In this document: piece after piece, positions 49,051 through 63,508 of the stretch
Numbering within the stretch: position 1 is the first letter of the stretch
Layout: every line of letters starts with the position of its first letter
Notes under the pieces: generated by a model
Databases searched by the model: none
What the model was told of the DNA's origin: nothing
The model's input: the letters and a program-made list of their open reading frames with translations, nothing else
Assembly: GCA_026125895.1 (NCBI GenBank)
Contig: JAHCKG010000024.1
Coordinates: 1 to 64,000, forward strand
Direction of reading: 5' to 3'
Source of the DNA: Pseudolabrys sp.
Lineage (GTDB): Bacteria > Pseudomonadota > Alphaproteobacteria > Rhizobiales > Xanthobacteraceae
DNA: 64,000 nt
Program-made: the position numbers and the translations under genes

Positions 49051-50034
49051 ATGATCTCAACGAAGACGCGCGGCCGTACGGTCGCCGGCGTGGCGGCCGC
49101 GGTTCTCGGCGGCTTGGCCGTTGTGCTTTCGCATGCGATGCCGGCCGCGGCGCAAGACACGGTTCGCATCGCGCTGCCGACCAAAACCTATTACCCGACC
49201 ATCATCTCGGAAGCGGCGCTGCGCTATAAGCGATTCGAGAAGGAAGGCATCAAGGCCGAGCTCACCGTCTATCGCGGCGGCGCCGAGGCCTTCGAGGCGG
49301 TCGCCGCGGGCGCCGCCGATCTCACGGTCGGCTCGACCGCGATCGTCGCCGCCGGCATCAAGAAGGGCGTGCACACGCAGGCCGTCGCCGGTGCCGGGAT
49401 GGGCTACACCGGCTGGTACCTGATGGTGAAACCGGATTCGCCGATCAAGGATGTCAAGGATCTCGACGGCAAGAAAGTCGGCATCACGTCGGCCGGCTCG
49501 GCGAGCGATATCATCGCGCGCTGGACCATGGCGGACAAGAAGATCAAGTTCACCGCGGTGCCGCTCGGCGGCGGCGGCCTGGTTCCGAACATGCTGTCCG
49601 GCAACGTCGATGCCATCGTGCTGTATTCGCCGCTCAGCTTCAAAGTGCTGCAGGAGAAGACCGGCCGCGCGCTGATCGATTACGGCCAGGCGATGCCGGA
49701 GCACCTCAGCGGCGTGTGGATCGCCTCCGACAAGGTGATCAAGGAAAAGCCGGCGATGGTGCAGAAGGCGGTCAACGCGCTGTTCGGCGCCATGACGGTG
49801 CTGAAGGCCGACAAGGCGGGTGCCGTCAAGCTGATCGCCGAAGTCGACGAGATCCCGCCGCAGATTGCCGAGGCCGAGCTCGAGGGCAACATCCTCAAAT
49901 TGTCCGCCGATGGCGAAATGAAGAAGGATTGGGTGCAGCGCGGCCTCGACATGGCCAAGCTCGTCGGCATGACGGATCTGGCGCCGATCGACCAGATCTA
50001 CACCGAGAAGTTCAAGGCGGTGCCGACCAAGTAG
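49051..50034 (+). CDS. ABC transporter solute-binding protein, SsuA/TauA/NMT1-like
   Basis: The 327-residue protein has a Sec signal (TRGRTVAGVAAAVLGGLAVVLSHAMPAAAQ) and the SsuA/THI5-like fold: VRIALPTKTYYPTIISEAALRYKRFEKEGIKAELTVYRGGAEAFEAVAAGAADLTVG. It acts in the periplasm. The ATG at 49051 has GAGGAGG upstream. Members bind sulfonates, taurine, pyrimidine precursors or aromatic acids, so the ligand is open. It leads a transporter run with two permeases. Confidence 0.9.
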   Translation: MISTKTRGRTVAGVAAAVLGGLAVVLSHAMPAAAQDTVRIALPTKTYYPTIISEAALRYKRFEKEGIKAELTVYRGGAEAFEAVAAGAADLTVGSTAIVAAGIKKGVHTQAVAGAGMGYTGWYLMVKPDSPIKDVKDLDGKKVGITSAGSASDIIARWTMADKKIKFTAVPLGGGGLVPNMLSGNVDAIVLYSPLSFKVLQEKTGRALIDYGQAMPEHLSGVWIASDKVIKEKPAMVQKAVNALFGAMTVLKADKAGAVKLIAEVDEIPPQIAEAELEGNILKLSADGEMKKDWVQRGLDMAKLVGMTDLAPIDQIYTEKFKAVPTK

Positions 50035-50055
50035 CGTGCGGTCCGGGGGATCGTC

Positions 50056-50808
50056 ATGAGCAGGACCGCGACACTCCTGACCCGGCTCGCCATGCTCGTC
50101 GTCTTTCTCGGCGCGTGGGAGTTTCTCCCGCGCGCCGGGATCGTCAATCCGATGCTGCTGCCGCCTTTGTCGCAGGTGCTGGCGACGCTCGGCGACATCG
50201 TGGCGCGCAGCGATTTCCGCGAGGCCATGGCGGTGACGGCGGCCGAGGTCGTGGTCGCCTTCGTCATCGCCGTGCCGCTCGGCGCCGCGCTCGGCGTGCT
50301 GTTCGCGGAAAACGCCTATCTCGGCGCCATTTTCCGGCCGATGCTGTTCTACGTCTTCAGCATCCCGAAATCGATTTTTCTGCCGATGTTCATCCTCGCC
50401 TTCGGCATCGGCTTCGGCCAGAAGGTGGCTTACGCGACGTTCTCGACGGTGTTCATCGTCATCATGAGCACCACCGCGGCGGTGGAATCGGTCAAGGCGG
50501 AGTACATCCTGGTCGCGCAATCCTACGGCGCGACGCGGGCGCAGATCCTGCGCCGTGTCTATGTGCCGAGCATGATGCCGATCCTGCTCGAAGCCGTCCG
50601 CATTTCGATGATCTTCAATTTCACCGGCGTCATGATCGCGGAGATGTATGCCTCGCGCACCGGCGTCGGCCACATGATTGCCAACTGGGGCGAGAATTTC
50701 ATGCTGCCGCAATTGTTCGCCGGCGTGATCGTGCTGGCGCTGGCGGCGATGGCTTTTAACGAACTGGTCCGGTCACTGGAGGTGAGATGCAGCAGGTGGC
50801 GAAGCTGA
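50056..50808 (+). CDS. ABC transporter permease, SsuC/TauC-like, first
   Basis: The 250-residue permease has six or so helices and the EAA-like loop AEYILVAQSYGATRAQILRRVYVPSMMPILLEAVRISM. It overlaps the ATPase gene by 22 bases. A second, distinct permease follows the ATPase, so the importer may have a heterodimeric membrane part. Confidence 0.92.
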   Translation: MSRTATLLTRLAMLVVFLGAWEFLPRAGIVNPMLLPPLSQVLATLGDIVARSDFREAMAVTAAEVVVAFVIAVPLGAALGVLFAENAYLGAIFRPMLFYVFSIPKSIFLPMFILAFGIGFGQKVAYATFSTVFIVIMSTTAAVESVKAEYILVAQSYGATRAQILRRVYVPSMMPILLEAVRISMIFNFTGVMIAEMYASRTGVGHMIANWGENFMLPQLFAGVIVLALAAMAFNELVRSLEVRCSRWRS

Positions 50809-51593
50809 AGCCTCAGGCGGAAACGGGACGGGCGAACGCGGTCGAGGTGACCGGCGTCAGTCACATCTATCACGGCCGCGAAGGCGCGGTGCCGGCGCTG
50901 ACCGACATCGACATGACCGTGCCGGCCGGGCACTTCACCGTCATCGTTGGGCCGTCGGGCTGCGGCAAGACCTCGCTGCTGATGATGCTCGCCGGGCTGC
51001 GCACGCCGACCGAAGGCACCATCCTGTGCGACGGGCGGCCGATCCCATCGCCGGATCCGCAGCGCGTCGGCGTCGTGTTTCAGGAGGCGAGCCTCTATCC
51101 CTGGCTGAGCGCGCTCGACAATGTCGAATTCCCGCTGGCGCTCAAGGGCGCGCCGCGCGGCGAGCGCCGCGACCGCGCGCAGGCGATGCTCAAGCTGGTC
51201 GGCCTCGACGGTTTCGGCGGCCGCTACCCGCATGAACTGTCCGGCGGCATGAAGCAGCGCGTCTCGATCGCGCGCGGCCTGGTGCAGGACCCGCCGGTGC
51301 TGCTGATGGACGAGCCCTTCGCCGCGCTCGACGAGCAGACGCGCATGACCATGGGCCACGAACTGCTGCGCATCTGGGACGAGACCAACAAGACGGTGGT
51401 GTTCATCACGCACAGCCTCACTGAAGCGGTCTATCTCGCCGACGAGGTGCTGGTGATGTCGGCGCGACCCGGCCGTATCATCGACCGCGTCGCCGTCGAT
51501 CTGCCGCGGCCGCGCACCTACCAGATGATGGCGACCGACAAGTTCGGCCAGTTGCGCGAACGGATCTGGCAGCAGATCCGCGCCAAGGAGTAG
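50787..51593 (+). CDS. ABC transporter ATP-binding protein, SsuB/TauB-like
   Basis: The 268-residue ATPase has Walker A GPSGCGKTS, signature LSGGMKQRVSIARGL, Walker B LLMDEPFAALDEQTR and the switch His in VFITHSLTEAVYLADEV, ending with the SsuB/TauB-type ARPGRIIDRVAVDLPRPR. The ATG at 50787 follows GGAGG inside the preceding gene. Confidence 0.95.
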   Translation: MQQVAKLKPQAETGRANAVEVTGVSHIYHGREGAVPALTDIDMTVPAGHFTVIVGPSGCGKTSLLMMLAGLRTPTEGTILCDGRPIPSPDPQRVGVVFQEASLYPWLSALDNVEFPLALKGAPRGERRDRAQAMLKLVGLDGFGGRYPHELSGGMKQRVSIARGLVQDPPVLLMDEPFAALDEQTRMTMGHELLRIWDETNKTVVFITHSLTEAVYLADEVLVMSARPGRIIDRVAVDLPRPRTYQMMATDKFGQLRERIWQQIRAKE

Positions 51594-51599
51594 GGCGCC

Positions 51600-52412
51600 A
51601 TGAACCGCCCGTCGCCGCAAACCGTCCGCCGTCTCATCGGCCTTGGCGTGCTCGTATTATGGGAAGCGGTGCCGCGGCTCGGCATTCTGCCGGAACTGTT
51701 CGTGCCGCCTTTGACCAAGACATTGGCCGTGCTGTGGAGCGACCGGCTGATTTATCTCGGCGGCCTGATGGTCACCCTGTATGAAGTTTTCTTCGCCATG
51801 CTGATCGCCTGCGGCGCCGGCATTCTGCTCGGCGCCATCGTCGGCGGCGTCGCCGTCGTCCGCAACCTGATGTTGCCGGTGGTGTCGAGCCTCTACGCCA
51901 TCCCGATCGTCATCCTGTATCCGATCTTCACCGCATGGTTCGGCATCGGCTCGGAATCGAAGATCGCCTTCGCCGGCGTCTATGGCTTCTTCCCGGTAAT
52001 GCTGTCCACTGCCGCCGGCATTCGCACCATCGACGAGCAATATCTCCTCGCCGCGCGCAGCATGGGCGCGAGCCTGCCGCAACTCATCACCCGCGTCATC
52101 ATTCCGGCGGCGATCCCGACGGTGCTCGCGGGCCTGCGGCTCGGCGGCGCGCTGACCATCATCGGCGTCGTCGTCTCCGAGATGCTGACCTCGGCGAGCG
52201 GCATCGGGTATCTCGTCACCATCAACCGCACCATTCTCGACAGCCCGCGCGTCTTCGCCGCGATCATCGTCGTGCTGCTGTTGTCGATCGCCTTCGATCT
52301 GGCGGTTCGCGCCATCGAGCGCCGCACATTGGCCTGGCAGACCGCCGGCCGCCGGGTCGCCTCCACCGAGGACGTTCGCGCCGCGCGCCTGCCGGCGCCG
52401 GCCACCGCCTAG
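51600..52412 (+). CDS. ABC transporter permease, SsuC/TauC-like, second
   Basis: The 270-residue permease has the loop DEQYLLAARSMGASLPQLITRVIIPAAIPTVLAGLRLGGALTIIGVVVSEM. It differs clearly from the first permease, which supports a heterodimer. It lies six bases after the ATPase stop. Confidence 0.92.
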   Translation: MNRPSPQTVRRLIGLGVLVLWEAVPRLGILPELFVPPLTKTLAVLWSDRLIYLGGLMVTLYEVFFAMLIACGAGILLGAIVGGVAVVRNLMLPVVSSLYAIPIVILYPIFTAWFGIGSESKIAFAGVYGFFPVMLSTAAGIRTIDEQYLLAARSMGASLPQLITRVIIPAAIPTVLAGLRLGGALTIIGVVVSEMLTSASGIGYLVTINRTILDSPRVFAAIIVVLLLSIAFDLAVRAIERRTLAWQTAGRRVASTEDVRAARLPAPATA

Positions 52413-53627: not shown

Positions 53628-53701
53628 GCGGGTGTAGCTCAATGGTAGAGCAGCAGCCTTCCAAGCTGAATACGAGGGTTCGATTCCCTTCACCCGCTCC
53701 A
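53628..53701 (+). tRNA. tRNA-Gly (anticodon TCC)
   Basis: The acceptor stem GCGGGTG pairs with CACCCGC, the D arm has GCTC/GAGC, the anticodon loop CTTCCAA shows TCC and the T arm GGGTTCGATTCCC is intact. The CCA end is encoded (53699-53701). It lies between the MetE-like gene and a convergent gene. Confidence 0.97.
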
Positions 53702-53716
53702 GCCGTCTCCTGAGCC

Positions 53717-54697
53717 TCACGCCCCTTTGATGCCGGCCGCCTTGATGACGCCGGACCATTTCGCCGTCTCCGCCTCGATGAACTTGCCGAAGTCGGCCGC
53801 GTTCAGGCCGTGCGTTTCCATGCCTTGCTCGAGGAACTTCTGTTTCATCTCCGGCTCGCGCAAGGCGCGGTTGATCTCGTTGTCGAGCCGCCGAACGATC
53901 GGCGCCGGCACGCCGGCAGGGGCCATGAAGCCGTACCAGCCGGCGGCAACGACGCGCGGCAGTCCTTGCTCGGCGAGCGGCGGCGCGTCCTTGAAGATCT
54001 CGCTGCGCGCGGTGGCGGCGACGCCGAGCGCCCGCAGCTTGCCGGCCTGGATGTGCGGCAGCGCCGCGGTGATGGCGGTCAGCGTCGCGTCGATGCGGCC
54101 GCCGAGCAGATCGGTGTAAGCCGGAACATCGCCGCGATACTGGATGACGGTGCCTTTGATGCCGGCGTCGCGCATCAGCAGTTCGACCGCCAGATGCGGC
54201 AGCGAGCCGTTGCCGGGCGAGCCGAAGTTCAGGCCGTCGGCCTTCGACTTGCCGTGCGCGACGAACTCCGCGACGGTCTTGGCCGGCGAGCTTGCATTGA
54301 CGACGAGGAACAGCGGCACCGTTGCCGTCATGGCGATCGGCTGCAGGTCCTTCTTTGGATCGTAGTTCAGTTTGCCTTGCAGCGCTTCGAGCGTGGAATA
54401 GGGCGCGGCGGCGTGCAGCAGGGTGTAGCCGTCCGGCGTGACATGGGCGACGTAATCGTTGGCCAGCATGGTGCCGGCGCCGGCCTTGTTCTCGACGATG
54501 AAGGATTGGCCGAGCCGGTCCTGGAGATATTTGCCGATCAGCCGCGTGGCGATGTCGCTCGGACCGCCGGCGCCGTAGGGTGAGATGAGGCGCACGGTAC
54601 GCGTCGGCCACTTGTCCTGGCCGAAGGCCTGTGTCGCGGCGCCGGCAGTGAGGCCGGCGGCGGCCATACCCAGAAACGTCCGTCGGTCGATGCTCAT
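53717..54697 (-). CDS. Bug/TctC-family tripartite tricarboxylate transporter binding protein
   Basis: The 326-residue protein has a Tat-like signal (IDRRTFLGMAAAGLTAGAATQAFG) and the Bug family features WPTRTVRLISPYGAGGPSDIATRLIGKYLQ, GQSFIVENKAGAGTMLANDYVA and PDGYTLL. It binds an organic acid in the periplasm. No TctA/TctB membrane genes lie nearby, which is common for orphan Bug proteins. It is divergent from a LysR gene across a spacer with a LysR-like site. Confidence 0.93.
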   Translation of the reverse strand: MSIDRRTFLGMAAAGLTAGAATQAFGQDKWPTRTVRLISPYGAGGPSDIATRLIGKYLQDRLGQSFIVENKAGAGTMLANDYVAHVTPDGYTLLHAAAPYSTLEALQGKLNYDPKKDLQPIAMTATVPLFLVVNASSPAKTVAEFVAHGKSKADGLNFGSPGNGSLPHLAVELLMRDAGIKGTVIQYRGDVPAYTDLLGGRIDATLTAITAALPHIQAGKLRALGVAATARSEIFKDAPPLAEQGLPRVVAAGWYGFMAPAGVPAPIVRRLDNEINRALREPEMKQKFLEQGMETHGLNAADFGKFIEAETAKWSGVIKAAGIKGA

Positions 54698-54799
54698 TGT
54701 CGTTTCTCTCCCTGCGTTCTTAATGCGCGTCTTGCGGCGCCGCCGGCGGGTCGGGCCCGCCTTTTCGGGATTGATGATAGAGGGGTCATTTTATTAGGA

Positions 54800-54818
54800 T
54801 ATCAGCATTTTATTGATA
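54800..54818. promoter_or_regulatory. LysR-type T-N11-A palindrome in divergent spacer
   Basis: TATCA (54800-54804) and TGATA (54814-54818), nine bases apart, form the ATC-N9-GAT form of a LysR site in a strongly AT-rich stretch between the Bug gene and the LysR gene. Self-control and control of the Bug gene by the adjacent LysR is the usual pattern. Confidence 0.6.
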
Positions 54819-54864
54819 ATCTAAAAGCTGGCCTTATAGGTCGGGAAACGCGAAAGAGCAGCTT

Positions 54865-55833
54865 ATGGCGTTCGAGGTGACGTTGCGGCAGATGCGGGCC
54901 TTCGTCAGCGTGCTCGATCACGGCAGCTTTTCCGACGCCGCCGAAAGCCTGCATCTGTCGCAGGCCGCGCTCAGCGGCCTGGTTCGGGAACTGGAGAACC
55001 GCATCGGCGTGCGGCTGCTCGATCGCAACACGCGCCATGTCAGCGCCTCGGTGGTCGGCGCCGCCTTCGAGCCGATGGTGCGCCGGGTGCTGGCCGATCT
55101 CGACGAGGCGCTGGAGAGCGTCGTCAATCTCAAAGAGTTGCGTCGCGGCCTGGTGCGCGTCGCCGCGCCGGAGACCTTGTCCTGCACGCTGCTGCCCGGA
55201 CTGATCGCCGACTACGCCGCGCATCGTCCCGGCATCGACGTGCGCTTCGAGGACGTGCCGATCGAGCAGGTGATCGCCAGCCTGAACAGCGGCAGCGTCG
55301 ATATCGGCTTCGGCCCGGCCGGCGTCGTCGATGACGATGCGGTGGAGGCCCACGTCGTCGCCGCCGATCCGTTGTGGGTGGCGTTGCGGCCCGACGATCC
55401 GCGCGCCGGCGACGACGCGGTGCGCTGGAAGGACATGGATGACCTGCCACTGATCAACTACATGCCGAACCTCGCGCTCAACGTGCTCAGCCATGTGCCG
55501 GTGCGGCATCATCCGAAGCAGATTGTGCCGGTGCATCGCGTCAACACGGCACTTTCGCTGTTGCGGGTGCGGCCGGGCCGCGTCATCTGCCCGTCGATGG
55601 CGCGCTCACTCGCCGAGGGTTTCGGCCTCGTGGTGCGGCCGTTGTGCCAGCCGACCGTGACCTGGCGCATCGCCATGTTCGTGCGCAAGCGGCCGCTGGC
55701 TTCGCCGGCGGTGGAGAGCTTCGTGCGCTTCACGCTCGATGCCGCGGCCGGCAGCGACGCCGGAAAGCCGGTGCCGAAGCCCGCCGGCCGCGGGCCGCGC
55801 AAGCGCTCGCGGATCAATAAGATTTCCCGATAG
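54865..55833 (+). CDS. LysR family transcriptional regulator
   Basis: The 322-residue protein has a LysR helix-turn-helix (VTLRQMRAFVSVLDHGSFSDAAESLHLSQAALSGLVRELENRIGVRLLDRNTRHVSAS) and a standard effector domain (LVRVAAPETLSCTLLPGLIADYAAHRPGIDVRFED). A basic C-terminal tail (RGPRKRSRINKISR) is extra. It is divergent from the Bug gene and 54 bases upstream of the acyl-CoA synthetase fusion, so it may control both. Confidence 0.94.
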   Translation: MAFEVTLRQMRAFVSVLDHGSFSDAAESLHLSQAALSGLVRELENRIGVRLLDRNTRHVSASVVGAAFEPMVRRVLADLDEALESVVNLKELRRGLVRVAAPETLSCTLLPGLIADYAAHRPGIDVRFEDVPIEQVIASLNSGSVDIGFGPAGVVDDDAVEAHVVAADPLWVALRPDDPRAGDDAVRWKDMDDLPLINYMPNLALNVLSHVPVRHHPKQIVPVHRVNTALSLLRVRPGRVICPSMARSLAEGFGLVVRPLCQPTVTWRIAMFVRKRPLASPAVESFVRFTLDAAAGSDAGKPVPKPAGRGPRKRSRINKISR

Positions 55834-55887
55834 AAGTCTCGGAATTCTCAGCTTGCCCGATAAACGGCGCTGCGGTCTGGTTCTGCC

Positions 55888-58800
55888 ATGCAGCAGACCG
55901 ACCTCGACTCCTTCCTGTCGCCAGCCTCTATCGCCGTGGTCGGCGCGTCGTCGGAGCCGGCCAAGATCGGCGCCGTAGCGCTGCGCCATCTCATCGAGCA
56001 CGGTTTCGCCGGCGCCATCTATCCGATCAACGCCAAGGCGGCGCGCATCGCCAACCGTCCGGCCCTCGCTTCGCTCTCTGCCGTCGGCCAGCCGATCGAT
56101 CTTGCCATCTTCGCCATTCCGGCATCCGCCGCCGCGGCGGCGCTCGACGATGCCATCGCCGCCGGCGTCAGAAACATCGTCATGTTCTCGGCCGGCTTCG
56201 CCGAAAGCGGCGGCGCAGGCGGCGCGGCGCAGCAGGCGCTCGCGGCCAAGGCGCGCGCCGCCGGCATCCGCCTGCTCGGGCCGAACTGCCTCGGCTTCAT
56301 GAACGTGGCGCGTGGCGTCTATGCGACGTTCTCGCCGGTGGTCTCGACCGGGCTGGTGAAGCCCGGCAAGGTCGGCATCGTCAGCCAGAGCGGCGCGTTC
56401 GGCGCGTATGCTTATGCGATGGCGCGCGAGCGCGACGTCGGGCTGTCCGCCTGGATCACCACCGGCAACGAGGCCGACATCGACGTCGCCGATTGCATCG
56501 CCTGGATGGCGCGCGATCCGGCGACCGATATCATCATGGCCTATCTCGAAGGCTGCCGCGACGGCGCCAGGCTGCGCAGCGCGCTCGGCGACGCGCGCGC
56601 CGCCGGCAAGCCGGTGGTCGTGGTCAAGGTCGGCCGCACGGCGCTCGGCATGGCGGCGGCGGCATCGCACACCGCGGCATTGGCCGGCGACGATGCCGTG
56701 TTCGATGCCTTGTTTCGCCAGCACGGCGCCTGGCGCGCCGATACGATCGACGAATTCTTCGACGTCGCGCATGGTCTGGCGGTGTCCGGCCTGCCGGCCA
56801 ACAAGAAGGTCGGCCTGCTCACCGTGTCGGGCGGTGTCGGCGTCATGATGGCCGATCACGCCGAGCAGGCCGGCCTCGACGTCGCGGCATTGCCCGAGGC
56901 CGCGCAGGATGTCATTCGCGGCCGCGTGCCGCTGGCGGCGACGCACAACCCGGTCGATCTCACCGGGCAGGTGACAGCCGATCCGTCGCTGATCGATTTC
57001 GCCGCCCGCACCATGCTGGAGCAGGGCGGCTATGGCAGCCTGCTGATCTTTCTCGCCGCCTTCGGCAGCACGCCCGCGGTCGAGGCGTTGCAGCAGCAAC
57101 TGGCGCGCGATTTGCGCCGCGACTTTCCCGATCGCCTGCTGATCTTCAGCCGGCTCGCCGATGCCGCGCAGCAGCGCGCACTCGAGGCGGCAGGATCCTT
57201 GTGCTTTTCCGATCCGGCGCGCGCCATCCGCGTGCTCGCCGCGATGGCGTTCTTGCAGGAGCAGCGCGCGCGGCCGATGGATGCCGGGCTGACGCTGCGC
57301 CCCGGACCGATCGTTCAGCCGGGCCGCTACACCGAGGCCGATGCTTTGGACCTGCTCGGCAAGGCCGGCGTGCCGGTGTTGGCGGCGAAGCGCGCCGCCA
57401 CACGCGACGCCGCGGCCGCGGCCGCCGCGGCGCTCGGCTTTCCGGTGGCGATCAAGGTCTTGTCCGCCGACATCACGCACAAGAGTGACGCCGGCGGCGT
57501 GGCGCTGAACATTGGCAGTGCCGCGCAGGCGGCCGATGCCTACGACCGCATCATGAGCTCGGTGCGCGCCGCCGCGCCGTCGGCAACGCTGGACGGCGTG
57601 CTGGTGGCGCCGATGGTGCGCGGCGGCGTCGAATGCATCATCGGCGTGCGCCGCGATCCGGTGTTCGGCATCGTCGTCATGCTCGGCAGCGGCGGCGTCA
57701 ATGTCGAGCTTCTGGGCGATGTCAGCCTGCGGCTGGCGCCGGTCGATCATGCGCAGGCTTTGGCGATGATCGATGAGCTGAAGACGGCGCCGCTGTTCCA
57801 TGGCTTCCGCGGCGCGCCGCGCGCCGACGTCGCGGCGCTGGCCGACGCCATCGTGCGGCTGTCGGAGTTCGCCCTGTCGGCCGGCCCGGCGCTGGTCTCG
57901 GCCGAGCTCAATCCGTTCGTCGTGCTGCCGCAAGGCGAGGGCGCGCTGGCGCTCGACGCCGTGCTGCTGACCACGCCGCCGCCGCCGCGCCAGGAGCACG
58001 ACGTCGCGCGCGATGTCGTCGTCGAAACCTTGCCGCTGTTCGAGATGGCGCGCATGCGCGCCGCCACCACCGCGCGCAAGCATCCGCGCGAGGGCTTCGC
58101 CGGCGACAGCCCGGCCTCGCGCATGCGCTGGGTCAATCAGTTCACCCACACGCGCCGTCTGCGCAGCCCGGACGACAAGGAAGTCGTCACGCCGAACAAC
58201 GACACCTTGTTCACCAATGCCTGGCTCGATCTGTCGGAAGGCCCCTTGGTCATCGACGTGCCGGCGATGGGGCCGCGTTACTGGGTGCTCGGCTTTCTCG
58301 ATGCCTGGACCAATCCTTGGGCCTATGCGGGGCGGCGCACCACCGGCGGCGGCGCGCAGCAACTCTTCGTCCACGGTCCGAACTGGCGGGGAAAAGTGCC
58401 GGTCGGCATGCATCGCATCGCCGCGCCGGGCGACGACGTCTGGATCATCGGCCGCATCCTCGTCGATGCCGACCCGGCGGATCTGGCGCGCGTCCACGCC
58501 CTGCAGGACGCCTTCGTGCTGCGAAAGCCGGATGGCGCGCCGGCGCTCGGCCGCGTCGATACGTTGATCGAGGATCGCGGCGCCGGCATTCCTGATGCCG
58601 GCGAATATCGCCGCGTCGTCGATGTCATGCTCGCGCGCAATCCGCCCGCCGCTGCTGTGCGAGGCTGGCCGCCGGCGCCGGACGAACTGCAGCGCGCGCT
58701 CACCGACGTCTACACAGAACTGCGCGATGTGCCCGACGCCTCCGCTCTCGGCGGCGGTTGGGTGACGGCGGTGACGGTGCAAACCAGTTTCGGCGACGAC

Positions 58801-59232
58801 TTCCTCACGCGCGCCCGCGTCGCGCGCAACTGGATCGGCACGCTCGGCGTCGAGGAGGCGATGTACATCATGGCCGAGGTCGATGCCGACGGCGAAGCGC
58901 TGACCGGCGCGCGGCGTTATCGCTTGCGCTTCCCGCCTGGCGGCGGGCCGCAGGTCGATGCCTTCTGGTCGATCACATTATATCGGCGCAGCGACTGCCT
59001 GCTGGTCGCCAATCCGATCGGACGCCACTCGATCGGCGACCGCACCGCGGGCCTGTCGCGCGATGCCGATGGCGGCCTCACCATCGTCATCCAGCCCGCC
59101 GATCCCGGTCCTGGCGTCAACTGGCTGCCGGCGCCGGATGACGGCTTCTATCTGACCTTGCGCCTGTACCAGCCGCACCGTACCCATCTCGGCGGGACCT
59201 TCCGTTATCCGCCGGTCGAGCGGCTGGCATGA
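55888..59232 (+). CDS. Fusion of ADP-forming acyl-CoA synthetase with DUF1254-DUF1214
   Basis: The 1114-residue protein joins two unrelated modules. Residues 1 to about 700 are an ADP-forming (NDP-forming) acyl-CoA synthetase: CoA-binding Rossmann domain (IAVVGASSEPAKIGAVAL), succinyl-CoA-ligase-like domains with the phosphorylatable His261 in ASHTAALAG, and an ATP-grasp part with His531 in ITHKSDAGGV. After a proline-rich link (TTPPPPRQEH, near residue 700) come a DUF1254 domain (VTPNNDTLFTNAWLDLSEGPLVIDVP) and a DUF1214 domain (DAFWSITLYRRSDCLLVANPIGRHSIGDR, about residues 1000-1105). Free DUF1254/1214 proteins usually carry signal peptides; none is here. The frame is open throughout. It is followed by a thiolase after ten bases. 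Confidence 0.9.
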   Translation: MQQTDLDSFLSPASIAVVGASSEPAKIGAVALRHLIEHGFAGAIYPINAKAARIANRPALASLSAVGQPIDLAIFAIPASAAAAALDDAIAAGVRNIVMFSAGFAESGGAGGAAQQALAAKARAAGIRLLGPNCLGFMNVARGVYATFSPVVSTGLVKPGKVGIVSQSGAFGAYAYAMARERDVGLSAWITTGNEADIDVADCIAWMARDPATDIIMAYLEGCRDGARLRSALGDARAAGKPVVVVKVGRTALGMAAAASHTAALAGDDAVFDALFRQHGAWRADTIDEFFDVAHGLAVSGLPANKKVGLLTVSGGVGVMMADHAEQAGLDVAALPEAAQDVIRGRVPLAATHNPVDLTGQVTADPSLIDFAARTMLEQGGYGSLLIFLAAFGSTPAVEALQQQLARDLRRDFPDRLLIFSRLADAAQQRALEAAGSLCFSDPARAIRVLAAMAFLQEQRARPMDAGLTLRPGPIVQPGRYTEADALDLLGKAGVPVLAAKRAATRDAAAAAAAALGFPVAIKVLSADITHKSDAGGVALNIGSAAQAADAYDRIMSSVRAAAPSATLDGVLVAPMVRGGVECIIGVRRDPVFGIVVMLGSGGVNVELLGDVSLRLAPVDHAQALAMIDELKTAPLFHGFRGAPRADVAALADAIVRLSEFALSAGPALVSAELNPFVVLPQGEGALALDAVLLTTPPPPRQEHDVARDVVVETLPLFEMARMRAATTARKHPREGFAGDSPASRMRWVNQFTHTRRLRSPDDKEVVTPNNDTLFTNAWLDLSEGPLVIDVPAMGPRYWVLGFLDAWTNPWAYAGRRTTGGGAQQLFVHGPNWRGKVPVGMHRIAAPGDDVWIIGRILVDADPADLARVHALQDAFVLRKPDGAPALGRVDTLIEDRGAGIPDAGEYRRVVDVMLARNPPAAAVRGWPPAPDELQRALTDVYTELRDVPDASALGGGWVTAVTVQTSFGDDFLTRARVARNWIGTLGVEEAMYIMAEVDADGEALTGARRYRLRFPPGGGPQVDAFWSITLYRRSDCLLVANPIGRHSIGDRTAGLSRDADGGLTIVIQPADPGPGVNWLPAPDDGFYLTLRLYQPHRTHLGGTFRYPPVERLA

Positions 59233-59242
59233 GAGAGAGGTT

Positions 59243-60454
59243 GTGCAGGTGGCAAGTCAGGCAGGCCAGACGGCCAAGGACGTCTATATCGTCTCGGCGG
59301 TGCGCACCGCGGTCGGCAGTTTCGGCGGCACGCTGAAGGATACGCCGCTCGCCGAGCTGGCGGGCACGGTGGTCCGCGAGGCGGTGACGCGCAGCGGCGC
59401 CGACACGCAGAGCGTCGGCCACGTATCGATGGGCACGGTGATCACCACCGAGCCGCGCGACATCTATCTCAGCCGCATCGCCGCGCTCGACGCCGGGCTG
59501 CCGCAGGAGGTCTCGGCTTTCAACGTCAACCGGCTGTGCGGCTCCGGTTTGCAGGCCATCGTCTCCTCGGCGCAGACCATCCTGTGCGGCGATGTCGAGG
59601 TCGCGGTCGGCGCCGGCGCCGAGTCGATGTCGCGCGCCGGCTATCTGGCGCCGGCGATGCGTTTCGGCGCGCGCATGGGCGACGCGGCGCTGCTCGACTT
59701 GATGCTCAACGCGCTGCACGACCCGTTCCACAAGATCCACATGGGCGTCACCGCCGAGAACGTCGCCGAGCGTTTCGGCATCACGCGGCAGATGATGGAC
59801 GAGCTGGCGGTCGCCAGCCACGCGCGCGCCGCCAGGGCGATCGCGGAAGGCCGCTTCAAGGAGCAGATCGTTCCGGTCAAGATCGCCAGCCGCAAGCGCG
59901 TCATCGAGTTCGACACCGACGAGCACGTCAAGGCGGACACGACGCTCGAAGTCCTGTCGGGGATGAAGCCGGCGTTCAAGCGCGATGGCGGCAGCGTCAC
60001 CGCCGGCAACGCATCCGGCATCAATGACGGCGCGGCCGCGGTCGTGCTGGCGAGCGGCGAGGCGGTGAAGGCGCAGAACCTCAAGCCGCTGGCGCGGCTG
60101 GTCGGCTACGCTTATGCCGGCGTCGATCCGGCCTTCATGGGCATCGGCCCGGTGCCGGCGACGCGCAAGCTGCTCGATCGCGTCGGCCTGACGGTGTCCG
60201 ATCTCGATGTCGTCGAATCCAACGAAGCCTTTGCCGCGCAGGCCTGCGCGGTGAGCCGAGAACTCGGCTTCGATCCGGCCAAGGTCAATCCGAACGGCTC
60301 CGGCATTTCCCTCGGCCATCCGGTCGGCGCTACCGGCACGATCGTCACGGTCAAGGCGCTGTACGAATTGCAGCGCATCGGCGGCCGCTACGCGCTGGTC
60401 ACGATGTGCATCGGCGGCGGGCAGGGCATCGCCGCGGTGTTCGAGCGCGCATGA
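59243..60454 (+). CDS. Acetyl-CoA acetyltransferase family thiolase
   Basis: The 403-residue thiolase has the nucleophile Cys99 in NRLCGSGLQ, the GHPVGATG His loop and the second catalytic Cys in TMCIGGGQG. It either cleaves 3-ketoacyl-CoA with CoA or condenses two acyl-CoAs. The start is a GTG at 59243, ten bases after the fusion gene. The stop overlaps the next ATG (ATGA). Together with the acyl-CoA synthetase part upstream it suggests activation and thiolytic cleavage of an acid. Confidence 0.95.
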   Translation: MQVASQAGQTAKDVYIVSAVRTAVGSFGGTLKDTPLAELAGTVVREAVTRSGADTQSVGHVSMGTVITTEPRDIYLSRIAALDAGLPQEVSAFNVNRLCGSGLQAIVSSAQTILCGDVEVAVGAGAESMSRAGYLAPAMRFGARMGDAALLDLMLNALHDPFHKIHMGVTAENVAERFGITRQMMDELAVASHARAARAIAEGRFKEQIVPVKIASRKRVIEFDTDEHVKADTTLEVLSGMKPAFKRDGGSVTAGNASGINDGAAAVVLASGEAVKAQNLKPLARLVGYAYAGVDPAFMGIGPVPATRKLLDRVGLTVSDLDVVESNEAFAAQACAVSRELGFDPAKVNPNGSGISLGHPVGATGTIVTVKALYELQRIGGRYALVTMCIGGGQGIAAVFERA

Positions 60455-61308
60455 CGTCCCCCGGCCTCATCCGTCCCGTGCTCGACCACGTGGTCGTCAA
60501 TGTGATGACGCGGCTCGACGAGGTCGCGGCGCAATTCACGCGCCTCGGCTTCCAGCTCACCGCGCGCGGCCATCATTCGCTCGGCTCCAGCAATCATCTC
60601 GCCGTGTTCGGCGAAGGCTATCTGGAACTGCTCGGCTTCCTGCCGGGCAATGAGGGCAAGCGGCCTGATCTTGCCGGTCACCCGGCGGGGCTGACCGGAC
60701 TGGCTTTTAAGGCCGACGATCCGGCCCAGGTTTATGCGACAATGCGTGCGCGCGGCGTACCGGTGCGCGAGCCGATGTCCTTCGCGCGGCCGGTCGCGGC
60801 GCCGGATCGTTCGACGGCGGAAGCGCGCTTCACCGTCATCACGATGCCGCCGGAGGTGGTGGCGAACGGCCGCACCTTCTTCTGTCATCATCACACGCCG
60901 GAACTGGTGTGGCGGCCGGAATGGCAGGCGCATCGCAACGGCGCGCTCGGCATCGCCGAATTCGTCATTGCCTCCCACGAGCCGGCGCGCACCGCGGCGC
61001 TGTACGAAGCCATGTTCGGTCCGCATTTGACGACGCCGGTTGCCGGCGGCCTGTCCTTCGCCGCCGGTGCCATGACGGTGCTGATCCTGACGCCGGACGC
61101 CGTTGCCGAACGCTACCGGGACGCCGCGCCGGTCAGTCCTGATGGGGCGGACCGCATGGTGGCGCTCGCCTTTGCCGTTCGCTCGTTGGATGCGCCGCGC
61201 GCGGTGCTGGACAGTGCGGGCATTCCTTATACGGCCCTGCCGTCGGGCGGCATCGTCGTGCCGCATGCCTTTGCCGGCAACCTGGCGCTGAGTTTCGTCG
61301 AGCGGTGA
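60451..61308 (+). CDS. VOC/glyoxalase-like domain protein
   Basis: The 285-residue protein looks like the glyoxalase-like (Glyoxalase_3 type) VOC family: LDHVVVNVMTRLDEVAAQFTRLGFQLTARGHHSLGSSNHLAVFGEGYLELLGF at the N-terminus and a second module from about residue 165 (GIAEFVIASHEPARTAALYEAMFG). Such proteins bind metals and catalyse diverse isomerisations, dioxygenations or lyase steps. The ATG at 60451 overlaps the thiolase stop. The substrate is unknown. Confidence 0.85.
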   Translation: MTSPGLIRPVLDHVVVNVMTRLDEVAAQFTRLGFQLTARGHHSLGSSNHLAVFGEGYLELLGFLPGNEGKRPDLAGHPAGLTGLAFKADDPAQVYATMRARGVPVREPMSFARPVAAPDRSTAEARFTVITMPPEVVANGRTFFCHHHTPELVWRPEWQAHRNGALGIAEFVIASHEPARTAALYEAMFGPHLTTPVAGGLSFAAGAMTVLILTPDAVAERYRDAAPVSPDGADRMVALAFAVRSLDAPRAVLDSAGIPYTALPSGGIVVPHAFAGNLALSFVER

Positions 61309-61605: not shown

Positions 61606-61705
61606 GTTGCATTCGAGCAATGTCTGCGCCGCCATTGACCGCGGCTTCTGCCGCGGCCTATCGACAATCCAGCAGCATCCGCATTCGCCTCGAAAAGGTT
61701 TCGCC

Positions 61706-63508
61706 ATGGCCTTCATCAATCCGTCGCCCTTCACCACGCGGCCCGAGATCGAAGGCACCTTCGGCGTAGTCACCACGACGCACTGGATCGCCACCGCGGT
61801 CGGCATGTCGATCCTGGAGAAGGGCGGCAACGCTTTCGACGCCGGTTGCGCCACCGCCTTCACGCTGCAAGTCGTCGAGCCGCATCTCAACGGACCCGGC
61901 GGCGACGTGCCGGTGATCCTGCACGATGCGCGCCGCGGCAAAACCGAAGTGATCTGCGGGCAGGGCCCGGCGCCGGCCGGCCTCTCGATCGAATACTGCC
62001 GCTCGCTCGGCCTCGATCTCGTGCCCGGCACCGGCCTGCTCGCGGCCTGCGTGCCCGGCACCTTCGACACCTGGATGCGGCTGCTGCGCGACTACGGCAC
62101 CATGACTCTGGAAGAGGTGCTGGCGCCGGCGATCTCCTACGCCCGCAACGGCCATCCGCTGGTCGAGCGCGCCAGCGCCACCATCGACACCGTCAAGGAT
62201 CTGTTCCGCGACCATTGGCCGACCTCCGCCGCCATCTACATGCCGCATGGCGACGTGCCGGCGCCGGGCACGATGTTCACCAACACCGTGCTCGCCGACA
62301 CCTACACGCGCATCGTGCGCGAAGCGAAGTCCGCCGGTGGCGATCGCGGCCAGCAGATCGAAGCGGCGCGCAAGGCGTGGTCGCAAGGCTTCGTTGCGGA
62401 AGCGATCGATCGCTTTTGCCGGACGCAAGAGGTGATGGACGTCACCGGCGCGCCGCATCGCGGCGTGCTCACCGGTGAGGACATGGCGACGTGGCAGTCG
62501 ACCGTTGAGGAGCCGATCGGCTACGACTACGGACGCTATCGCGTGCTCAAGGCGGGTCCGTGGACGCAAGGGCTGGTGGCGTTGCAGCAGCTCGCGCTGC
62601 TCAAGGGTTTTGAACTGAACAAGATGAAGCCGACCGATGCCGATTTCATCCATCTCATCGTCGAAGCCTCAAAGCTCGCTTTCGCCGACCGCGAGGCGTT
62701 CTACGGCGATCCGGCCTTTGTCGAAGTGCCGGTCGAGACGCTCCTGTCCGACGCCTATAATAAAGAGCGTCGCGCGCTGATCGGCGAGACCGCGTCGATG
62801 GATTTGCGGCCGGGCACGATTGCCGGCTTCGGCGGCAAGGTCGATGCCCGCGTCTCCAATGCCGAGCGCGTCGCGGTCGGCGCGTCCGGCGCCGGCGAGC
62901 CGACGGTCGGCCGGCTCGGTCAGGTGCGCGGCGACACCGTGCATTTCGACATCGTCGACAAGGACGGCAACATGATCGCGGCGACGCCGTCCGGGGGCTG
63001 GCTGCAAAGTTCGCCGGTCATTCCCGAACTCGGCTTCTGCCTCGGCACGCGGGCGCAGATGTTCTGGCTCGACGCCAGCCACCCGGCGGCGTTGCTGCCG
63101 GGCAAGCGGCCGCGCTCGACCCTGTCGCCGACCATGGCGCTGCGCGACGGCAAGCCGTATCTCGCCTGGGGCTCGCCCGGCGGCGACCAGCAGGACCAGT
63201 GGATCCCGCAGTTCTTCCTGCGCCACGCCGATTGCGGTCTCAACCTGCAGGAGGCGATCGACGCCCCGGCCTGGCACAGCGAGCATTTCCCGCAGTCGTT
63301 CTGGCCGCGGCAGTCGCGGCCGGGGGTGCTGGTGGTCGAAAACCGGCTGCCCAAAGCCACGATCGAGGAGCTGCGCCGGCGCGGCCATGTGGTCGAGATC
63401 GGCGACGACTGGTCCGAGGGCCGGCTGGTCGCGGCCTCGCTCGACGGGGTGCGGCGCCGGGCAGCGGCGAATCCGCGCGGGATGCAGGGCTATGCCGCCG
63501 GCCGGTAA
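61706..63508 (+). CDS. Gamma-glutamyltransferase family protein
   Basis: The 600-residue protein has the GGT fold: VVTTTHWIATAVGMSILEKGGNAFDAGCATAFTLQVVEPHLNGPGGD at the N-terminus and the autoprocessing site region GDTVHFDIVDKDGNMIAATPSGGW. The nucleophile Thr is present, but the usual Thr-Thr-His reads Thr-Val-His. I chose the ATG at 61706, with AAAAGG upstream. No signal peptide follows this start, unlike classical periplasmic GGT. A role in transpeptidation of glutathione or in acylase-type hydrolysis cannot be told apart. Confidence 0.9.
   Translation: MAFINPSPFTTRPEIEGTFGVVTTTHWIATAVGMSILEKGGNAFDAGCATAFTLQVVEPHLNGPGGDVPVILHDARRGKTEVICGQGPAPAGLSIEYCRSLGLDLVPGTGLLAACVPGTFDTWMRLLRDYGTMTLEEVLAPAISYARNGHPLVERASATIDTVKDLFRDHWPTSAAIYMPHGDVPAPGTMFTNTVLADTYTRIVREAKSAGGDRGQQIEAARKAWSQGFVAEAIDRFCRTQEVMDVTGAPHRGVLTGEDMATWQSTVEEPIGYDYGRYRVLKAGPWTQGLVALQQLALLKGFELNKMKPTDADFIHLIVEASKLAFADREAFYGDPAFVEVPVETLLSDAYNKERRALIGETASMDLRPGTIAGFGGKVDARVSNAERVAVGASGAGEPTVGRLGQVRGDTVHFDIVDKDGNMIAATPSGGWLQSSPVIPELGFCLGTRAQMFWLDASHPAALLPGKRPRSTLSPTMALRDGKPYLAWGSPGGDQQDQWIPQFFLRHADCGLNLQEAIDAPAWHSEHFPQSFWPRQSRPGVLVVENRLPKATIEELRRRGHVVEIGDDWSEGRLVAASLDGVRRRAAANPRGMQGYAAGR

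Follow-up and report, generated by a model that had tools for sequence, protein, structure and literature searches.

An acyl-CoA synthetase fused to DUF1254 and DUF1214 domains: a candidate bifunctional enzyme of carboxylic acid catabolism

In a 64,000-nucleotide stretch of contig JAHCKG010000024.1 from Pseudolabrys sp. (the window), one gene encodes an ADP-forming acyl-CoA synthetase that continues, in the same polypeptide, into a DUF1254 and a DUF1214 domain. We think, with moderate confidence, that the gene product is a bifunctional cytoplasmic enzyme of a catabolic module for carboxylic acids, in which the DUF half catalyses a step adjacent to CoA activation. The same architecture recurs in other genomes, and beside related, non-fused DUF proteins the ligase is replaced by an unrelated CoA-activating enzyme. 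No literature report on such a fusion was found. For DUF1254 and DUF1214 themselves, the accessible parts of the literature gave no tested function; in those of PMC10734457, PMC2744874, PMC3751524 and PMC6710368, proteins of this type appear in lists or tables without one, and a table in one of these papers names a Caulobacter member "phosphatidylserine decarboxylase".

Table 1. Features of the fused gene, its neighbours in the window and the tandem DUF genes of other loci
Feature	Positions	Strand	Basis or occurrence
TctC (Bug) family solute-binding protein, divergent	53717..54697	-	similar gene (57-71%), same place in other fusion-type loci except L034
LysR-type regulator	54865..55833	+	similar gene, same place in other fusion-type loci except L034
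Fused gene: ADP-forming acyl-CoA synthetase, DUF1254 and DUF1214, 1114 aa	55888..59232	+	frame and Pfam
Acyl-CoA synthetase half, residues 1-700	55888..57987	+	Pfam, motif alignment
Proline-rich linker, variable, about residues 693-705	57964..58002	+	comparison with relatives
DUF1254 domain, residues 749-878	58132..58521	+	Pfam
DUF1214 domain, residues 990-1097	58855..59178	+	Pfam
BktB-like beta-ketothiolase, directly downstream of the fusion	59243..60454	+	also in L025, L034, L040
Tandem diverged DUF1254-DUF1214 genes	L058:4561-7278
Tandem diverged DUF1254-DUF1214 genes	L059:4713-7314
Tandem diverged DUF1254-DUF1214 genes	L061:4740-7314
Tandem diverged DUF1254-DUF1214 genes	L104:11163-13829
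Tandem diverged DUF1254-DUF1214 genes	L105:10106-12835

Domains and residues of the fused protein

The earlier note on this DNA had described a synthetase followed by DUF1254-DUF1214 in one frame and had proposed a search of domain databases. The frame is a single one of 1114 codons from ATG to TGA, and Pfam finds in it the ligase domains as well as both DUFs. In the ligase half CoA_binding_2 (residues 14-139), Succ_CoA_lig (159-295) and ATP-grasp_5 (482-692) score above their cut-offs, and Ligase_CoA_2 (310-386) lies slightly below its own (21.6 against 23.7 bits). The fusion carries the CoA-binding, succinyl-CoA-ligase-like and ATP-grasp domains of the ACD superfamily. His261 (in SHT) and His531 (in HK), which the note had called intact, are found at these numbers and are invariant in 18 aligned fusions. 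Both motifs align with those of the solved ligases 8wzu and 9y43, and from its match to their SHT motif His261 would be the conserved swinging-loop histidine of the superfamily. Both DUF domains are complete, as had been claimed, since nearly the whole profiles are covered: positions 1-131 of 133 for DUF1254 (E 2e-46; 158 bits against a gathering score of 22) and 1-111 of 112 for DUF1214 (E 7e-34; 117 bits against 25).

The 4-hydroxybutyrate-CoA ligase 8wzu matches residues 8-691 of the fusion over nearly its whole length and has the same domain content, and the 3-hydroxypropionate-CoA ligase 9y43 shares domain content and the SHT and HK motifs with the ligase half; unlike these two, the window gene has an additional C-terminal DUF1254-DUF1214 part. 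The closest solved ligases are thus users of hydroxy acids. Among the 11 NCBIfam models listed as matches, the fusion ligase stays below the curated score of every one, including those for acetate- (400 against 1200 bits), 3-hydroxypropionate- (353 against 1300) and 4-hydroxybutyrate-CoA ligases (385 against 1300).

The DUF half has the DUF1254-DUF1214 (VPA0735-like) fold according to a whole-chain structural match, and all of its strong fold matches are to uncharacterised proteins. VPA0106 (3u07) and VPA0735 (3vb9, 2p3y) are 18-26% identical to it, unfused and deposited as uncharacterised, and 6ans from Burkholderia cenocepacia, 13% identical, is likewise an uncharacterised protein; none of the matched structures carries a named activity. 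The DUF half is poorly predicted in the full-length model, hence no interface between the ligase and DUF parts is seen in it. The linker that comes after LALDAVLL varies freely in sequence and length, the shortest in relatives having a few residues and the longest about 60.

In 60 DUF sequences 24 positions are invariant, the polar or charged ones including D67, R92, Y93, R151, R270, S323, Y327, N337, R341 and R387 (DUF numbering). The cytoplasmic and the distant DUF relatives have 39 positions in common, which suggests that the underlying chemistry can do without CoA. The earlier note had held that free DUF1254/DUF1214 proteins are usually exported. For the distant relatives this stands, with signal peptides called by a crude script in 50 of 65; it does not stand for the closest free ones, where the same script called one protein of 17 in one of the two nearest groups and none of 5 in the other, with no convincing case. 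Five of the negatives in the distant group are the tandem partners in L058, L059, L061, L104 and L105.

Some further DUF1254 matches were encountered. A second, weak one lies at G000:C34:92855-93259, in a frame only 213 aa long, and similarly short frames with DUF1254 (180-256 aa) are present in further genomes from the class. OR848136.1, OR846720.1 and four more unannotated records labelled "Listeria phage" contain DUF1254-DUF1214 matches of 26-35% identity (five listed); possibly all six are mislabelled contigs.

Recurrence, selection and history of the fusion

Relatives were collected by scanning named genome records with residues 686-1114, and the best 80 of 124 loci were kept. Twenty of these 80 carry the fusion; they come from Alcaligenaceae, Comamonadaceae, Oxalobacteraceae and one member of the Xanthobacteraceae. 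Eighteen are complete single frames, one (L034) has both parts in one frame truncated at the contig end, and one (L060, 3895-7312, Variovorax sp. WDL1) is fused with a frame break later on, inside the DUF half. Only L040 shows a clean split into separate ligase and DUF genes. In the remaining 59 loci no ligase is fused to the DUF part within the recorded sequence; L045, counted here, is cut at its contig end and may be of either type. Hence the two-module architecture for which the earlier note had advised looking elsewhere exists, and its relatives are not always encoded as separate genes, the situation that it had named, along with reads showing a frameshift or stop, as a refutation.

Within the family of L024, whose genomes partly overlap with those behind the 80 loci, matches were found in 26 of 268 genomes, of which 20 are fused (frames of 1118-1211 aa), 3 are split, 2 are distant and 1 stops at a contig edge; a close DUF (72-81%) is present in 24 of the 268. 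In all three split genomes, one of them identical in sequence to L040, 13 bases separate the ligase stop from the DUF start codon. This indicates that the split is real and that the halves are able to work as separate chains. No second fusion was found among 397 genomes of the window's order (23 matched at E 1e-30, the window's own included), and the fusion is absent among the matches listed for 99 other relatives. In a sample of the phylum, only the window's frame exceeded 1000 aa among the matches listed.

The coding sequence was compared with that of six relatives in 14 stretches, which lie to the left and right of the junction and also span it. In all 14, pN was lower than pS (both simple uncorrected proportions), and by this measure purifying selection acts on both halves. 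Few parts of the fusion change more slowly than the DUF1254 and DUF1214 cores.

In a quick tree of the DUF half, which leaves out L060, the 20 fused rows form a group with L045 and the split L040 (support 97), and in one of the ligase half, which leaves out L034, 20 fused rows and L040 form one clade (95). The nearest free ligase to this clade is that of L058, about 2.4 kb from two DUF genes. As far as such trees can be read, those of both halves fit a single origin of the fusion, and the history fits one fusion followed by one fission; if L045 is unfused, a second loss is required. The rows of the window and of L025 (Xanthobacteraceae) are placed among betaproteobacterial rows. From this placement, and because the other sampled genomes of the window's order are without the fusion, the gene was likely acquired by transfer. 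Together, recurrence, purifying selection and trees back the earlier view that this is a true fusion and not the product of a lost stop.

Neighbouring genes and the exchange of CoA-activating enzymes

We compared 22 fusion-type loci (the window, L024-L043 and L060), the window supplying the TctC and LysR query proteins. A divergent TctC gene and a LysR gene lie upstream in 21 of the 22, the exception being L034, a truncated record. Downstream, a thiolase is found in 4 loci, the window counted, and a short-chain dehydrogenase (SDR) at least 67% identical to that of L025 in 10, three times after the thiolase; in the window no SDR follows the BktB-like thiolase. Among 39 of 81 downstream neighbours that were scanned there were 10 SDRs and 3 thiolases, and neither crotonase nor MaoC is among the families listed for them (25 of 48).

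Other genes were noted around these loci. In the window a Glyoxalase_3 protein (60406-61308), unmatched in the other compared loci, follows the thiolase, and a gamma-glutamyltranspeptidase (61607-63508) also lies beyond it. On the other side, at 49051-52412, visual reading of the translations suggests genes for ABC uptake: a binding protein, two permeases and an ATPase. Both types of locus can contain a carboxylesterase gene, which is seen in the fusion-type L042, L043 and L060 and in the non-fused L049, L052, L053 and L054.

The nearest non-fused loci number 20 (L044-L059, L061-L064), and in 13 of them the gene immediately before the DUF gene encodes a family III CoA-transferase. These transferases are 71-85% identical to that of L052, the one scanned with Pfam. 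All 13 loci have a divergent LysR gene and a downstream TctC gene (52-59% to the window's), with additional TctC matches at 31-41%. Given the fused ligase in some loci and this transferase in others, two unrelated CoA-activating enzymes replace each other beside related DUF proteins. The tie to a cytoplasmic CoA-ligating enzyme seen in the earlier note is thereby widened.

In three further loci of the 20 (L058, L059, L061) and on the Cupriavidus replicons L104 and L105, a tandem DUF1254-DUF1214 pair, whose members are perhaps two subunits of one complex, is found close to an independent gene for an ADP-forming ligase. The ligases of L058, L104 and L105 are related to the fused ones; that of L059 and L061, which are near-copies, is from a distant group (36%). 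No CoA-activating enzyme was found within 2.5 kb in L044, L045, L046 and L051. A ligase or CoA-transferase within 2.5 kb is thus present in 16 of the 20 near loci, or 17 of 21 with the fused L060 counted, versus 0 of 39 distant ones (L065-L103), with a Fisher p of 4e-11 that overstates the case, as the reference proteins were taken from these loci, 13 of the 16 belong to one clade, and L059 and L061 are near-copies with a distant ligase. Of the distant loci, L077 has an SDR nearby and L069 an AMP-forming ligase and TctC. On an annotated plasmid of Cupriavidus metallidurans, a 39% relative has genes for TctC and LysR as neighbours, and none of the genes near it is annotated as a CoA enzyme.

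Possible function and alternative explanations

ADP-forming enzymes of this family make acyl-CoA, ADP and Pi in three steps: a histidine is phosphorylated by ATP, its phosphate is handed on to the acid, and CoA then takes the place of the phosphate. With its residues intact, the ligase half would activate an acid in this way via phospho-His261. The DUF half most likely performs the step next to this activation, before or after it, on the same acid or CoA ester; that it shares the substrate is suggested by the fusion and by the exchange of ligase and CoA-transferase. Our best guess is a step of the hydrolase or hydro-lyase type leading to a hydroxy acid or hydroxyacyl-CoA. Judging from the neighbours, the SDR, where present, could oxidise the hydroxy product to a 3-oxoacyl-CoA, which the BktB-like thiolase could cleave, and the acid is probably taken up by the TctC/Bug system under control of the LysR regulator. 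The closest solved ligases and the SDR and thiolase neighbours are the basis of the hydroxy acid proposal, which is a weak one. The expectation that the fusion could reveal the substrate class of these domains holds for carboxylic acids handled as CoA thioesters and does not extend to a particular acid. Several results count against such a module. L044, L045, L046 and L051 lack a CoA enzyme within 2.5 kb, although no free relatives in the DUF tree lie closer to the fusion clade than L044 and L046, and none is annotated beside the Cupriavidus metallidurans relative. The 39 positions shared by cytoplasmic and distant relatives, the lack of a named activity among the matched DUF structures and the absence of SDR and thiolase near many fusions likewise speak against it.

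The breakdown of DMSP offers a parallel: DddX and the CoA-transferring DddD each join CoA and then run the next step, as reported in PMC8163506, and these alternatives resemble the exchange of ligase and CoA-transferase at the DUF loci. DddX (7cm9), an ATP-dependent DMSP lyase, belongs to the ligase superfamily of the fusion and likewise combines CoA ligation and a next step in one polypeptide. However, as described there, its second step takes place inside the ligase fold itself, whereas the fusion has an added domain. DddX aligns with residues 13-692 of the fusion at the level of the overall chain; its lyase pocket includes Trp391, Phe435 and Glu432.

Alternatively, the DUF half could be non-catalytic and bind the acid or hold the ligase in an assembly, delivering substrate. 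We regard this as rather improbable, though it would agree with strong fold matches that point to no enzyme and with the apparent export of most distant relatives, which would also fit a binding protein. Many of the invariant DUF positions are polar or charged, however, the DUF cores evolve slowly, and a pairing with two unrelated CoA-activating enzymes is hard to reconcile with a dedicated scaffold. There is a smaller chance that two enzymes of an operon were joined for co-expression, without consecutive intermediates. The freely varying linker and the separate genes 13 bases apart would be expected in that case; yet both halves would still belong to one pathway, and their association looks older than the fusion, as separate ligase and DUF neighbours occur in L058, L104 and L105 with related ligases and in L059 and L061 with a distant one.

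Very little speaks for a regulatory instead of a catalytic ligase half, as in protein acetyltransferases with an ACD-like part: although two of these (9it0, 9isq) are among the structure matches of this half, the two histidines are invariant in the 18 fusions and fall on the motifs of solved ligases in the alignment, and a CoA-transferase occupies the same place in related loci. Hardly any weight is left for two genes joined by an assembly error or read-through. The source is a draft genome (82% completeness, 5% contamination), and positions 53700-61308 are richer in G+C (0.69) and fit the genome signature less well (0.80) than the whole window. But successive stretches of the window correlate with the genome at 0.88-0.92, compared with 0.67-0.93 for twelve other contigs, and for the lineage as a whole this explanation is refuted by the 20 named loci with the same architecture.

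Returning to the bifunctional enzyme, a tentative extension is that DUF1254-DUF1214 of the cytoplasmic clade represents a new enzyme class acting at the CoA-activation step and fused for channelling, and that the distant, mostly exported relatives would catalyse this reaction beyond the cytoplasm, with free acids or esters as substrates. If this holds, the class might for example comprise hydratases, lactonases or acyl-CoA hydrolases of a novel type. DUF1254-DUF1214 proteins are widespread (DUF1254 is present in 77 of 398 genomes of the phylum sample), and their recurring partnership with CoA-activating enzymes suggests a role in intracellular acid breakdown. The fusion and the replacement of the ligase by a CoA-transferase give a direct handle on this role, since the acid accepted by either enzyme would point to the target of the DUF half.
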